DNA of 5,341 nucleotides from Candidatus Eiseniibacteriota bacterium (GTDB lineage: Bacteria > JAFGKV01), in NCBI GenBank assembly GCA_025453925.1, contig JALOPK010000250.1:1-5341 (forward strand). Direction: 5' to 3'. Positions 1 through 5,320 of the stretch are shown here, piece by piece (the first letter of the stretch is position 1; every line of letters begins with the position of its first letter). The notes below the pieces were generated by a model that saw only the letters and a program-made list of their open reading frames with translations, was not told the DNA's origin and ran no database searches. The position numbers and the translations under genes are program-made.

Positions 1-255
1 ACCGGAAAAATCACCCGAGTCAACCAGCAAGAAATCTCCCTCAGCCCTGATCCGATTCAGATAGGTGGCCCGCCGGGCCAGCCCGCCCTGTTGGGCGGAC
101 TTTCAGCCGCAGGGTTCGATCTTGCCTACCACGTCTCCGGTGTACACCACGGTGAAGTCCGCCTTGCGAGATCCGGCATCTCCATCTCCCGGCCAGAGCA
201 GGGCGGTGCCCAAAACAGCGGTGATCAGGACTCCAGGAACAAGATAACGAGTCAC
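1..255 (-). CDS. Exported metallophosphoesterase/5'-nucleotidase-like protein, probable selenoprotein (3' end outside window)
   Basis: The first 85 codons are present; the rest lies beyond the left edge. I chose the GTG start at 253-255 because GGGAGG sits 7 bases before it and it places a signal peptide at the N-terminus (MTR, then hydrophobic residues about 4-21, then a D-G-D-A-G region suited to cleavage near residue 27). The mature part opens with a beta strand ending in Y-T-G-D (D41), then I-E-P-C-G (46-50), an in-frame TGA as codon 51, then Q-G-G-L-A-R-R (56-62) and L-V-D-S-G-D (77-82). This order matches the N-terminal metal-binding part of UshA-like phosphoesterases, specifically the branch I know from memory with an E-P-C-G-C motif. 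The His of the usual D-x-H metal motif is Val43. Substrate is unknown; the likely location is periplasm or cell surface. A nonsense mutation or sequencing error is the alternative, but the open frame and conserved motifs after the TGA favour Sec readthrough. Family call is fairly confident. Confidence 0.8.
66..102 (-). promoter_or_regulatory. Candidate bacterial SECIS structure directly after the TGA
   Basis: The mRNA after the UGA folds strongly in more than one way. Fold 1 is a 9-bp stem over 80-101 (one G-U pair, loop AACA) beside a 6-bp stem over 66-80 (loop GGC, starting 28 bases after the UGA). Fold 2 spans 68-100: a 7-bp lower stem (one G-U pair), a five-base CAACA bulge, a 4-bp upper stem and the loop GGGCUG, starting 18 bases after the UGA. 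As I recall them, bacterial SECIS rules ask for a small apical loop about 16-37 bases after the UGA with a G among its first two bases. Fold 2 and the second stem of fold 1 meet this; the 80-101 stem alone does not. The GGGCU of fold 2 resembles the GGUCU loop of E. coli fdhF. No energies were calculated, and GC-rich sequence forms stems easily. Confidence 0.5.
103..105 (-). other. In-frame TGA codon, probable selenocysteine (Sec51)
   Basis: On the minus strand the codons read Ile-Glu-Pro-Cys-Gly-TGA-Lys-Ser-Ala-Gln-Gln-Gly-Gly-Leu-Ala-Arg-Arg. TGA falls at the second Cys of the E-P-C-G-C motif that I recall in homologues, and it differs from Cys codons only at the third base. No frame change is needed, and all 34 codons from the TGA to the window edge are open and family-like. 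The acetyltransferase and fhs in this window end with TGA at family-typical C-termini, so a general reassignment of UGA is unlikely. With Cys49 this would form a Cys-Gly-Sec pair. Sec insertion is inferred; it requires selA, selB, selC and selD elsewhere in the genome. Confidence 0.75.
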
Positions 256-652
256 GTCATGTCCTCCCGCGGCCCTTTGATGCTTCGCGAAAACGCTCTC
301 CGACAGGCGGAAGTTGCCGGCCGGGGAGCATTCGTCAAGTCCCTGCACAGCAATACGCGTGCCAGGCTCACCGGGTTTCCGCGCTGAAGAACACCGGGAC
401 GGTGTCCGGCACTTGCCCACGCCGCCTCGTCCGGCCATCATGGTGCCCTTTGACGACGAACGCGCCGGCGAGTATGCCGCGAGGGCACAGCCCGCGGGCG
501 GAATGCCGATGGCATGCGACATGAAGCGGTGTTCATGACGCTCCGCAAGGGTCGGAACGACCTCACGCCTTCGGGCTGGTCGGGAAGGCCCGTTCGCTTC
601 AGGCCAGGCTGCCCGCCGTGCGCTCCCCCCACGTCAACGGGGAGGAGGCATC
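256..652. other. Divergent intergenic region, no gene recognised
   Basis: This 397-base gap separates the divergent phosphoesterase and acetyltransferase genes, so it should hold both promoters. Open frames are present but none gives a protein-like composition, a good ribosome site and a recognisable motif together. Small inverted repeats are visible: ACACCG/CGGTGT with a three-base loop at 391-405, ATGCC/GGCAT around 502-514, and GGTCG/CGACC with a GAA loop at 550-562. None is followed by a T-run. I find no tRNA, including no tRNA-Sec, and no clear sigma-70 promoter. Confidence 0.5.
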
Positions 653-1144
653 ATGACGGAATCGGCCCCACGGGCTCCGGGCATCGAGATCACCCAAGCG
701 GATGTGGGAGAAGACCTGCGGGAGGCGAGAAGCCTCATCCTTGAGTATGCGGCCTCGTTGGGATTCGACCTCGGTTTCCAGCAGTTCGATGAGGAAATCG
801 CATCCCTCCCCGGCGAGTACGCGTCGCCGTCGGGCTGCCTGCTCCTGGCTCGCCTGGAAGGCAAAGCCGCCGGATGCGTCGGGGTTCGCGCGTTCGCTGA
901 GCGGATCTGTGAAATGAAGCGAATGTACGTCAGGCCCACGCTCCAACACCGCGGGGTCGGACGCGCCCTGGCGCAGGGAGCATTGCATGAGGCCCGCGCA
1001 ATGGGCTATCGGGTCATGCGTCTGGACACGCTGGCCTCCATGGAGGCCGCGCGGGCGCTGTATCGATCACTGGGTTTCCGGGAGATCGAGGCCTACCGGC
1101 ACAATCCTCTGCCCGATGCCGTCTACATGGAATGCGACCTGTGA
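653..1144 (+). CDS. GNAT family N-acetyltransferase
   Basis: A complete 163-residue protein of usual size for a single-domain GNAT enzyme, which transfers an acetyl group from acetyl-CoA to an amine. The ATG is preceded by GGAGGAGG at 641-648. The acetyl-CoA pyrophosphate-binding motif is Q-H-R-G-V-G at residues 98-103, preceded by the beta-4 strand E-M-K-R-M-Y-V-R-P (87-95) and followed by the helix carrying A-L-A-Q-G-A-L. The C-terminal half has M-R-L-D-T (122-126), A-L-Y-R-S-L-G-F (135-142) and a final Y-M-E-C-D-L, typical of the GNAT group with a conserved L-P-G-E-Y segment (52-56). The substrate cannot be read from sequence. It lies 114 bases upstream of fhs on the same strand with no obvious terminator between, so co-transcription is possible, but nothing shows a functional link. 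The protein is cytoplasmic, without signal peptide or membrane segment. Family confidence is high. Confidence 0.93.
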   Translation: MTESAPRAPGIEITQADVGEDLREARSLILEYAASLGFDLGFQQFDEEIASLPGEYASPSGCLLLARLEGKAAGCVGVRAFAERICEMKRMYVRPTLQHRGVGRALAQGALHEARAMGYRVMRLDTLASMEAARALYRSLGFREIEAYRHNPLPDAVYMECDL

Positions 1145-1258: not shown

Positions 1259-2929
1259 ATGTACGCGACCACCTCAAAAGCCCGCCCCATCGAAGAAATC
1301 GCCGGTCTGCTCGGCCTTAACCGGGACGACCTGATCCCCTTCGGCCATGACAAGGCCAAGGTGAGAATGCAGGCCGTTTCCCGCATTCTCGGTGCGCAGC
1401 AGGATCCACGCTGCGGGTGCGGCAAGCTGGTTCTGGTGAGTGCCATGACTCCCACGCCCGCCGGGGAGGGAAAGACCACCACCAGTATCGGTCTGACACA
1501 GGCGATGCGCAGAATCGGTAAGGCGGCGACGGTATGCCTTCGGGAGCCCTCCCTGGGACCTTGCCTTGGCAAGAAGGGGGGGGCGACCGGCGGCGGCCGT
1601 GCGCAGGTCATCCCCGCCCATGACATCAACCTCCACTTCACTGGCGATCTTCACGCGGTCACTACGGCCCACAACCTCATCGCCGCGACCATCGACAACC
1701 ATATTCACTTCGGCAATGACCTGGGGTTTGCTCCCGGCGAGGCGCTGTGGAGACGGGTGCTCGACATGAACGACCGCTCACTGCGGGAGATGGTGTTCGG
1801 GCTGGGACGCGTGAACCACCCCATCCGCCAGGGAGGCTTTGATATCACCGCGGCCTCAGAGATCATGGCTGCGCTGTGCCTCTCGCTTTCGTATGCGGAA
1901 CTGAAGGAGCGGGTGGGCCGCATGCTGGTCGGGTTCACGACAAAGGGCGCTCCCATCATCCTGTCGCAGCTCGGCATCCGGGGTGCGGTGGTCGCCCTTC
2001 TTCGGGATGCGATGCTTCCCAATCTGGTCCAGACCCTCGAGGGAGGCCCGGCGTTCGTGCACGGAGGGCCGTTCGCCAACATCGCGCAAGGCACCAGCAG
2101 CATTCTGGCCACAAGGCTGGCGCTGGCAACCAGCGACTACGTGGTGACCGAAGCGGGCTTCGGGTTCGACCTTGGCGCCGAGAAGTTCTTCGACATCGTG
2201 TGCCAGTACGGGAAGTTCGCCCCATGTGCGGTGGTCCTCGTGGCCACAGTGCGGGCGCTCAAGCTGCACGGCGGCGTGCCGGGCAAAGCCGTGAACCAGC
2301 CGAACCCGGAGGCCGTGGAGCGGGGCCGGCCCAACCTGGAGAAGCACATCGAGAACATCAGGAAGTTCGGGATGCGCTCGGTGGTGGCGTTGAATCGCTT
2401 CCCGTCGGATACCGATGAGGAGCTGGCAGTGGCCACCAGGATCTGCGCCGAGGCGGGGGAAGACAGCTCGGTGGTGACCTTCTTCACCGACGGGGGCGAA
2501 GGAGGCCTGGATCTGGCGGAGAAGGTCGTAACCCTGATGAATGCCGGTGCATGCAACTACCGCCCGCTCTATGATTGGAGACTGCCGGTCAAAGACAAGA
2601 TCGCCAGCGTGGCAAAGGCGATGTACGGCGCGGAAGCGGTGGACTATCGGCCCGAGGCCGAGCGGGCACTCGAACGGATCGACAAGCTGGGGTTCAGCGG
2701 GCTTCCGGTATGCATCGCCAAGACCCAGCAGTCCCTCTCCGACAACCCCGAGCTCCTGGGAAGGCCGAAGGACTTCCTGGTGACGGTGCGGGATATCGTG
2801 GTGTGCTCCGGAGCAGGATTCCTCGTGCCTCTCACGGGTGAGATCGTGCGTATGCCGGGGCTCCCGCGAACACCTGCGGCCGAGTCCATCGATATCGATG
2901 ACGAAGGGGTGATCTCGGGTCTGACCTGA
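1259..2929 (+). CDS. fhs: Formate-tetrahydrofolate ligase (10-formyl-THF synthetase)
   Basis: This cytoplasmic enzyme makes 10-formyl-tetrahydrofolate from formate, tetrahydrofolate and ATP, feeding purine and one-carbon metabolism or the methyl branch of the Wood-Ljungdahl pathway. The 556 residues match the usual length of about 557. Visible landmarks are the N-terminal I-E-E-I-A (11-15) and A-K-V (33-35), the nucleotide-binding T-P-T-P-A-G-E-G-K-T-T-T (64-75), the signature K-G-G-A-T-G-G-G (106-113), D-I-N-L-H-F-T-G-D (122-130), V-A-T-V-R-A-L-K-L-H-G-G (328-339) and the C-terminal M-P-G-L-P...A-A-E-S-I-D-I-D. I chose ATG 1259 over the in-frame ATG at 1181 because GAGGGAG lies just upstream, it gives the family length, and the 26 extra residues do not look like the family. 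Around the first signature, Thr110, Arg114, Ala120 and His121 stand where I recall Ala, Tyr, Met and Glu/Asp. No folD or other folate gene is adjacent, so its pathway cannot be decided here. Confidence 0.97.
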   Translation: MYATTSKARPIEEIAGLLGLNRDDLIPFGHDKAKVRMQAVSRILGAQQDPRCGCGKLVLVSAMTPTPAGEGKTTTSIGLTQAMRRIGKAATVCLREPSLGPCLGKKGGATGGGRAQVIPAHDINLHFTGDLHAVTTAHNLIAATIDNHIHFGNDLGFAPGEALWRRVLDMNDRSLREMVFGLGRVNHPIRQGGFDITAASEIMAALCLSLSYAELKERVGRMLVGFTTKGAPIILSQLGIRGAVVALLRDAMLPNLVQTLEGGPAFVHGGPFANIAQGTSSILATRLALATSDYVVTEAGFGFDLGAEKFFDIVCQYGKFAPCAVVLVATVRALKLHGGVPGKAVNQPNPEAVERGRPNLEKHIENIRKFGMRSVVALNRFPSDTDEELAVATRICAEAGEDSSVVTFFTDGGEGGLDLAEKVVTLMNAGACNYRPLYDWRLPVKDKIASVAKAMYGAEAVDYRPEAERALERIDKLGFSGLPVCIAKTQQSLSDNPELLGRPKDFLVTVRDIVVCSGAGFLVPLTGEIVRMPGLPRTPAAESIDIDDEGVISGLT

Positions 2930-3320: not shown

Positions 3321-3833
3321 CTAGTCGAGGGGCGGGATGCGCAGGACCTGACCCGGGAAGATCTTGTTGGGATCTTTCAACATTGGCTGGTTCGCCTCAA
3401 AGATCACCATGTACTTGCTCGCGTCGCCATAGTGCGCCTTGGCGATCTTCGAGAGGGTTTCGCCGGCCTTCACCGTATGGGAGGTCCCTGCGGGCTCTGC
3501 GACTTCGGCCTCTGGCGTCACTCCCGGCTTGGGAGCCGTCGGGGTCACGCCGATTGCAGGCCCTGTGGGCTGCAGCGGAGCCGCCGGCTTCGGCGCCACG
3601 CGAAGCGAATCGTTCACCTGCTTGACGTCCTCTGCACCCTTCAGGGCGAGGACGATCCTCTTCTTGTCTTCCTCTGACTGGGCCATGCCGAAGATCGCGG
3701 CGGTGGAGTCGAAGTAGTCGATCCTGAGACCCTCGACCTTAAAGCCGCGGTCGGTGATCATTGTGGTCAGCAGTCGCGCCTTCTCGCGGTTCTCCTGCTC
3801 CTTCTGTGCAGCGCTCTTGCCAAAGAGACCCAT
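3321..3833 (-). CDS. kbp: BON and LysM domain protein, Kbp/YgaU-like
   Basis: A complete 170-residue protein resembling E. coli Kbp (YgaU, 149 residues), a small cytoplasmic potassium-binding protein with the same domain order. It starts M-G-L-F as Kbp does. A BON domain covers about residues 18-80, a Pro/Ala/Thr-rich linker about 81-117, and a LysM domain 119-167 with H-T-V-K-A-G-E-T-L-S-K-I-A and the closing F-E-A-N-Q-P-M-L-K...P-G-Q-V-L-R-I-P that is nearly the Kbp C-terminus. There is no signal peptide, which fits a cytoplasmic Kbp role better than a cell-wall anchor. The linker is longer than in Kbp. The ATG at 3831-3833 is supported by AAAGGAG 7 bases upstream. The gene stands alone, convergent with fhs and divergent from the metallopeptidase. 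Potassium binding is transferred from the family and not shown here; a general peptidoglycan-binding label is the fallback. Confidence 0.9.
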   Translation of the reverse strand: MGLFGKSAAQKEQENREKARLLTTMITDRGFKVEGLRIDYFDSTAAIFGMAQSEEDKKRIVLALKGAEDVKQVNDSLRVAPKPAAPLQPTGPAIGVTPTAPKPGVTPEAEVAEPAGTSHTVKAGETLSKIAKAHYGDASKYMVIFEANQPMLKDPNKIFPGQVLRIPPLD

Positions 3834-4462: not shown

Positions 4463-5320
4463 ATGCGCTGGCAGATGGGTCGCAGGAGCACCAATGTGGA
4501 GGACCGCCGCGGCATGCGGGGCCGCGGCATCGCGGGGTTGGGAGGCGGCGCCATTCTCATCCTGGCGCTGTTCGCCCTCCTCACCGGCAGAAATCCCGTG
4601 GAGTTGCTGGAACAGGTAACTCCCACCGAAAGCATGGTCGGGCCGTCAGTTTCATCGGAGCAGTTCAGCGCCGAGGAACAGGAGCTGGCGGAGTTCTCCT
4701 CTGTCGTACTCGCCGACACGGAGGATACCTGGCGTGTCCTGTTCGAGGAGATGGGCAGGGTGTATCAGGAACCCAGGCTGGTGCTCTTCACGGGTGCGGT
4801 GCAGTCAGCATGCGGGTTCGCACAGTCGGCCGTTGGGCCGTTCTACTGCCCGCCCGATCAGAAGGTGTATCTGGATCTCAGCTTCTTCGAAGACCTCCGC
4901 GCACGGCACGGCGTCTCAGGTGACTTCGCCCAGGCCTACGTGATCGCCCATGAGATCGGCCATCACGTGCAGGAGCTGCTTGGCATCATAGACCAGGCGG
5001 ATGCGCTGCGGGCGCGTGCCGACCAGGCGGAAGCCAATGAGATCTCCGTGAGGCTGGAGCTACAGGCCGACTTCTTCGCCGGTGTCTGGGCCCATCATGC
5101 GCAGCGGGCTCGGCAGATCCTTGAGGAAGGCGACTTAGAGGAAGCACTGAACGCGGCGAGCCAAATCGGCGACGACCGCCTGCAGATGAAGTCCCAGGGA
5201 TACGTGGTGCCCGATGCCTTCACCCACGGAACCGCCGCCCAGAGAGCACGATGGTTTCTCCGAGGGTTCAAGACAGTCGACATCTCACAGGGAGACACCT
5301 TCAGCGCGCCATCACTGTAG
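4463..5320 (+). CDS. ypfJ: YpfJ/KPN_02809-type neutral zinc metallopeptidase, membrane-anchored
   Basis: A complete 285-residue protein, the usual size for this family of predicted zinc proteases whose substrates are largely unknown. It begins M-R-W-Q...R-R-S-T-N-V-E-D-R-R-G, the characteristic family start, followed by a Gly-rich stretch and one membrane segment at about 22-41, so the catalytic part probably faces the periplasm. The zinc site is H-E-I-G-H at 163-167 (HExxH, with another His at 168), and the downstream L-E-L-Q-A-D (198-203) probably supplies the third ligand. Also visible are S-A-C-G-F-A (115-120), G-P-F-Y-C-P (125-130, with Cys117 and Cys129 able to form a disulfide) and D-A-F-T-H-G-T-A-A-Q-R-A-R-W-F near the C-terminus. 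Family members often have C-D-T-F near the end; here the Cys is not present. I chose ATG 4463 over the in-frame ATG at 4403 because AGGAG lies 7 bases upstream and the family start follows. It stands alone in this window. Confidence 0.95.
   Translation: MRWQMGRRSTNVEDRRGMRGRGIAGLGGGAILILALFALLTGRNPVELLEQVTPTESMVGPSVSSEQFSAEEQELAEFSSVVLADTEDTWRVLFEEMGRVYQEPRLVLFTGAVQSACGFAQSAVGPFYCPPDQKVYLDLSFFEDLRARHGVSGDFAQAYVIAHEIGHHVQELLGIIDQADALRARADQAEANEISVRLELQADFFAGVWAHHAQRARQILEEGDLEEALNAASQIGDDRLQMKSQGYVVPDAFTHGTAAQRARWFLRGFKTVDISQGDTFSAPSL

Follow-up and report, generated by a model that had tools for sequence, protein, structure and literature searches.

Does the in-frame TGA of a minus-strand reading frame at the left edge of this contig encode selenocysteine (Sec), and if so, what kind of protein does the frame specify? 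The window, by which we mean the whole stretch of 5,341 nucleotides that was analysed, is the entire contig C278 of a draft genome of 502 contigs that is estimated to be 82% complete. An earlier note on this DNA had described a minus-strand frame with a GTG start at position 255 behind a ribosome-site-like GGGAGGA, a TGA at 103-105, and an open frame from there to base 1, and all of these elements are present as described. Translation from GTG(255) yields VTRYLVPGVLITAVLGTALLWPGDGDAGSRKADFTVVYTGDVVGKIEPCG, then the TGA at 103-105, then KSAQQGGLARRATYLNRIRAEGDFLLVDSGDFSG down to base 1; the readthrough around the TGA, IEPCG-TGA(103-105)-KSAQQGGLARR, stays open as far as the window edge, where the frame leaves the contig at base 1 and resumes on contig G000:C280. 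The features of the window are as follows.

1..255, minus strand: first 85 of the 459 codons of a predicted UshA-like selenoprotein gene, from translation, the NF041198 match, the contig overlap and the joined product.
1..74, no strand: exact overlap, 74 bases long, with the end of contig G000:C280; codons 61-459 are read from that contig; from contig-end comparison.
62..101, minus strand: putative bacterial SECIS region, short hairpins 3′ of the UGA, from folding and comparison; suggestive only.
103..105, minus strand: in-frame TGA, the probable Sec51 in place of the second EPCGC Cys, from translation, homologue codons and codon comparison with homologue L061.
169..255, minus strand: signal-peptide-like hydrophobic N-terminus, residues 1 to about 29, by inspection of the translation.
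260..266, minus strand: GGGAGGA, ribosome-site-like, a few bases 5′ of the GTG, by inspection.
653-1144, plus strand: ordinary GNAT acetyltransferase, an open reading frame with a TGA stop at 1142-1144.
1259-2929, plus strand: ordinary formate-tetrahydrofolate ligase (PF01268, E=2.6e-231).
3321-3833, minus strand: BON-LysM protein close to PRK11198 (125.5 bits, cut-off 134).
4463-5320, plus strand: neutral zinc metallopeptidase of the KPN_02809/YpfJ family, over the cut-off.

A family search of the genome's contigs located the remaining codons at the extreme end of contig C280. Extension past position 1, which the earlier note had proposed as a check, ran in an open frame onto that contig and gave a product of 459 residues; the reading frame is unbroken over the C278/C280 overlap, the TGA at codon 51 is the single internal one, and no second stop was found beyond the left edge in the joined frame before a TAA/TAG-type termination after residue 459. 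The joined product consists of a domain of the UshA/5′-nucleotidase fold followed by four CxxCH haem sites. It matches the NCBIfam model NF041198 (UshA_like_PCGU) with 319.2 bits (E=4.4e-95; cut-off 275); the TGA at codon 51 falls at the PCG[U/C] position of this family, and C280 matches profile positions 352-518, in the multihaem part of the model (about 346-518). The translated window piece by itself matches NF041198 across the TGA in a profile search (E=1.5e-18), and the two matches together indicate that the readthrough frame is not a product of chance.

On these profile matches, the window gene is a member of an already catalogued family, NF041198 'UshA-like (seleno)protein'. A CxU selenoprotein family designated 'COG0737, UshA-like' was reported with 76 sequences in a 2008 Global Ocean Sampling survey, where it was one of a small number of major families whose homologues have no conserved Cys-based redox motif (PMC2398784), and it appears again in later reviews (PMC9312934, PMC13188914). 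The window protein shares with this family a full-length match, the PCGU motif and the C-terminal haem region, and there is no categorical difference between them. The surveys label the family by its fold alone, and the loss of the nucleotidase active site is not stressed in them.

That loss is central to what the protein may do. Residues about 33-310 have the 5′-nucleotidase (UshA, CD73) fold, as judged by sequence profile and by Foldseek on an AlphaFold2 model built from 32 sequences (pLDDT 77, with low confidence in the haem part; an earlier 4-sequence model had a pLDDT of 61). The UshA and CD73 5′-nucleotidases (PDB 1ush, 5h7w, 2z1a) share this fold over the same residues; unlike them, the window protein has no GNH[ED] motif, no DxH His and no nucleotidase C-terminal domain, and instead carries the CxU pair and a tetrahaem domain. 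The dimetal and catalytic motifs DxH and GNH[ED] of UshA/5′-nucleotidases were looked for in the window protein and were absent, with the sequence reading G-E-R-E at the catalytic-His position of GNH[ED] and D-V-V in place of DxH. Across the 32 aligned members the former position is never His (0/32), the DxH His is kept in 2/31 (L072, L075), the Asp position of DAGD holds Asp in 16 members and Asn in 14, and His remains at the two later His-ligand positions in 15/32 and 14/32; invariant or nearly so in the same members are P48, C49, G50, C/U51, both Gly and the Arg of GG.AR, and each of the four haem motifs. Three ordinary UshA-like paralogues in the same genome all keep GNH[ED], and two of them also keep T[NT]DxH. 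The C-terminal tail, with its four CxxCH motifs, matches Cytochrome_C554 (Pfam PF13435) over residues 326-424; this is the same tetrahaem domain as in cytochrome c554 (PDB 1bvb), here fused to a Sec-containing domain, while the solved multihaem cytochrome c selenoprotein MccSep gives a weak match through the haem motifs. The description of the protein as phosphoesterase-like applies to its fold alone: the fold is that of the nucleotidases, but key catalytic and metal-binding residues are gone and a tetrahaem cytochrome domain stands at the end of the protein that lies beyond the window.

We consider it highly probable (roughly 0.9) that the gene encodes an exported selenoprotein of the NF041198 family, with Sec51 inserted by SelA/SelB/SelC/SelD, a tetrahaem tail, and a redox function on an impaired metallophosphatase scaffold. 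In this scheme the UGA at codon 51 would be decoded as Sec by SelA, SelB, SelC and SelD to yield a C-G-Sec pair, and the product would be exported to the periplasm. The pair would lie on a loop adjoining the former active site of the 5′-nucleotidase-type (calcineurin-like) domain, with the c554-type tetrahaem cytochrome domain following at the C-terminus. It would then serve as the catalytic redox centre and exchange electrons both with a substrate and with the four haems, making the protein a periplasmic oxidoreductase that has inherited a metallophosphatase scaffold of impaired hydrolytic capacity. Since the nucleotidase ligands have eroded while PCG(U/C), GG.AR and the haem sites are fixed, we infer a redox protein derived from a former phosphatase, that is, a periplasmic redox enzyme rather than a phosphoesterase. 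We lean only slightly towards the view that NF041198 comprises non-hydrolase periplasmic seleno-oxidoreductases in which the CxU pair, on a decayed dimetal scaffold, has a direct electron connection to a tetrahaem cytochrome. If that is true, the CxU-tetrahaem oxidoreductase would be a type of selenoenzyme so far uncharacterised. Annotation of the 'UshA-like' selenoprotein as a phosphoesterase appears unwarranted, as the conserved CxU/CxC pair and the four haem sites suggest electron transfer, a reading that gives this uncharacterised selenoprotein family a function that can be tested. Gene neighbourhoods gave no operon hint of the substrate; the adjacent genes serve housekeeping or secretion and are unlinked, with T2SSE/T2SSF in Fermentibacteria and LptD upstream in others.

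One may postulate instead that the Sec protein continues to act as a metal-dependent phosphoesterase or as a SoxB-like (thiosulfohydrolase-like) hydrolase to which the Sec and the haems are accessory. The 5′-nucleotidase fold is compatible with this, SoxB ranks second among the NCBIfam matches (95.6 bits, although far under its cut-off of 550), and the window protein retains D41, D82, H210 and H233 of the metal site; as a partial metal site of this kind is kept in some members, the window protein included, metal binding or weak hydrolysis is possible. The Asn-His of GNHE is replaced by E-R here, however, with no member retaining the His, the DxH His is Val in the window protein, and the Cys-form members have lost nearly all ligands while retaining PCGC and the haems, so that we regard a surviving hydrolase as unlikely and favour the redox protein.

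The haem tail and most of the nucleotidase-type domain are read from C280, and a false join, in which the two halves come from different paralogues, would separate them from the TGA. The join is made over 74 bases at two contig ends of a metagenome-assembled genome, yet these bases match perfectly, lie at the very tip of each contig, and the frame runs on through them. The joined protein also aligns without gaps over 459 residues with its nearest homologue, L061, a gene in another assembly (G001, Candidatus Fermentibacteria bacterium isolate Zod_Metabat.355); identity is about 73% on the C280 part and 74% in a second comparison, and both genomes continue downstream into the beginning of a gene for a T2SS ATPase-like protein. 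A chimaera of paralogues is accordingly very improbable, and the Sec call is in any case independent of the C278/C280 join.

For the TGA itself, the genome was searched for selA, selB, selC and selD, as the earlier note had suggested, and the full set was found. Profile searches recovered SelA on C390 (523.6 bits, cut-off 267.9), SelB on C170 (333.9 bits, cut-off 242.25) and two different selD genes over the cut-off (G000:C92:500-1435 and G000:C389:17296-18228; L040, L041), and a tRNA-Sec gene (selC) with anticodon TCA is present. Both selD genes themselves contain Sec: in each, an in-frame TGA falls on match residue 11, a position which we take to be SelD's usual Sec site. Relatives that share the TGA were also found: of 38 homologue rows with the four-haem tail, two of which (L010 and L073) are identical proteins, 27 have TGA in this column and 11 have TGC or TGT, so that every row without TGA has a Cys codon. 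The Sec form occurs in records labelled Fermentibacteria, Eisenbacteria, Krumholzibacteriota, Rokuibacteriota, Gemmatimonadota, Acidobacteriota and a handful of other groups, and the Cys rows are mostly from Nitrospirota and Deltaproteobacteria, these phylum labels being those of the metagenome-bin records, which may be mistaken; on the homologue tree the Sec/Cys label switches at least two times. L061 has the same TGA, and over codons 52-459 it differs from the window gene at 89, 60 and 222 first, second and third positions, respectively, a pattern of purifying selection downstream of the TGA, as expected of translated sequence.

The central proposal of the earlier note, which puts Sec in the place of the second Cys in EPCGC, is upheld by the Sec machinery, the open frame, the relatives with TGA and the Cys in the others, and these comparisons support the TGA at codon 51 as probably genuine Sec coding. 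Code reassignment was ruled out: the note had also recorded TGA as an ordinary stop in two other genes of the window, it does terminate the GNAT (1142-1144) and formate-tetrahydrofolate ligase (2927-2929) genes, and TGA is therefore not a reassigned codon here. That same use as a stop, and the draft state of the assembly, could be taken to suggest that the TGA at codon 51 is a true stop, a decaying pseudogene or a sequencing error, but the identical TGA in independent assemblies from several phyla, the strong constraint downstream of it and the full Sec machinery of the genome leave this hardly credible, and the shared TGA and downstream constraint led us to reject it. Ordinary gene calling would cut the gene at codon 51 and lose the selenoprotein.

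Eight of the Cys-form homologues, from Nitrospirota and Deltaproteobacteria (L065, L069, L080, L081, L083, L084, L092, L098), have an extra residue between CGC and GG (CGCSPKTDFGG, vs CGUKSKQRGG in the Sec form); nearly all metal ligands are lost in the same eight, with PCGC and the haems kept.

The region 3′ of the UGA was also compared for a SECIS element. In the window gene a GGGCUG loop begins 19 nt past the UGA, and in 26/26 compared sequences the loop starts with GG at this distance, atop a short stem; a UGA-to-loop distance of about 19 nt fits the published rule for bacterial SECIS elements. Stem pair cells were paired in 83% of cases as against 17-75% in shifted registers (26 sequences), a comparison confounded by Gly codons and a competing fold, and the lowest-energy fold of the window's sequence is another, more stable hairpin, UCCGCCC/GGGCGGG. 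The folding energy of the 45-nt region had a mean z of -0.83 over 26 Sec genes; the window gene gave -3.63 in the same run and -2.6 with an independent tool on 50 nt. Because the loop GG also opens a Gly codon, the hairpin is only suggestive: it appears compatible with the Sec reading and is no independent proof of it. We make no stronger SECIS claim in view of the weak mean z and the coincidence of the loop G's with the Gly codon.

Judging by its relationship to L061, the window's genome would be Fermentibacteria-like. A joint text search of the open literature for Fermentibacteria and selenocysteine returned no paper, and what is new here is the host genome in a Fermentibacteria-like lineage, the protein family itself being known. 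A second catalogued family, NF049981 (UshA-like (seleno)protein family 2), has a related N-terminal domain and Sec position and matches the window protein with 73.7 bits, under its cut-off of 140. Two further PCGU proteins, L004 and L006, have TGA at the same motif and no haem tail; by their length they may be members of this family 2.
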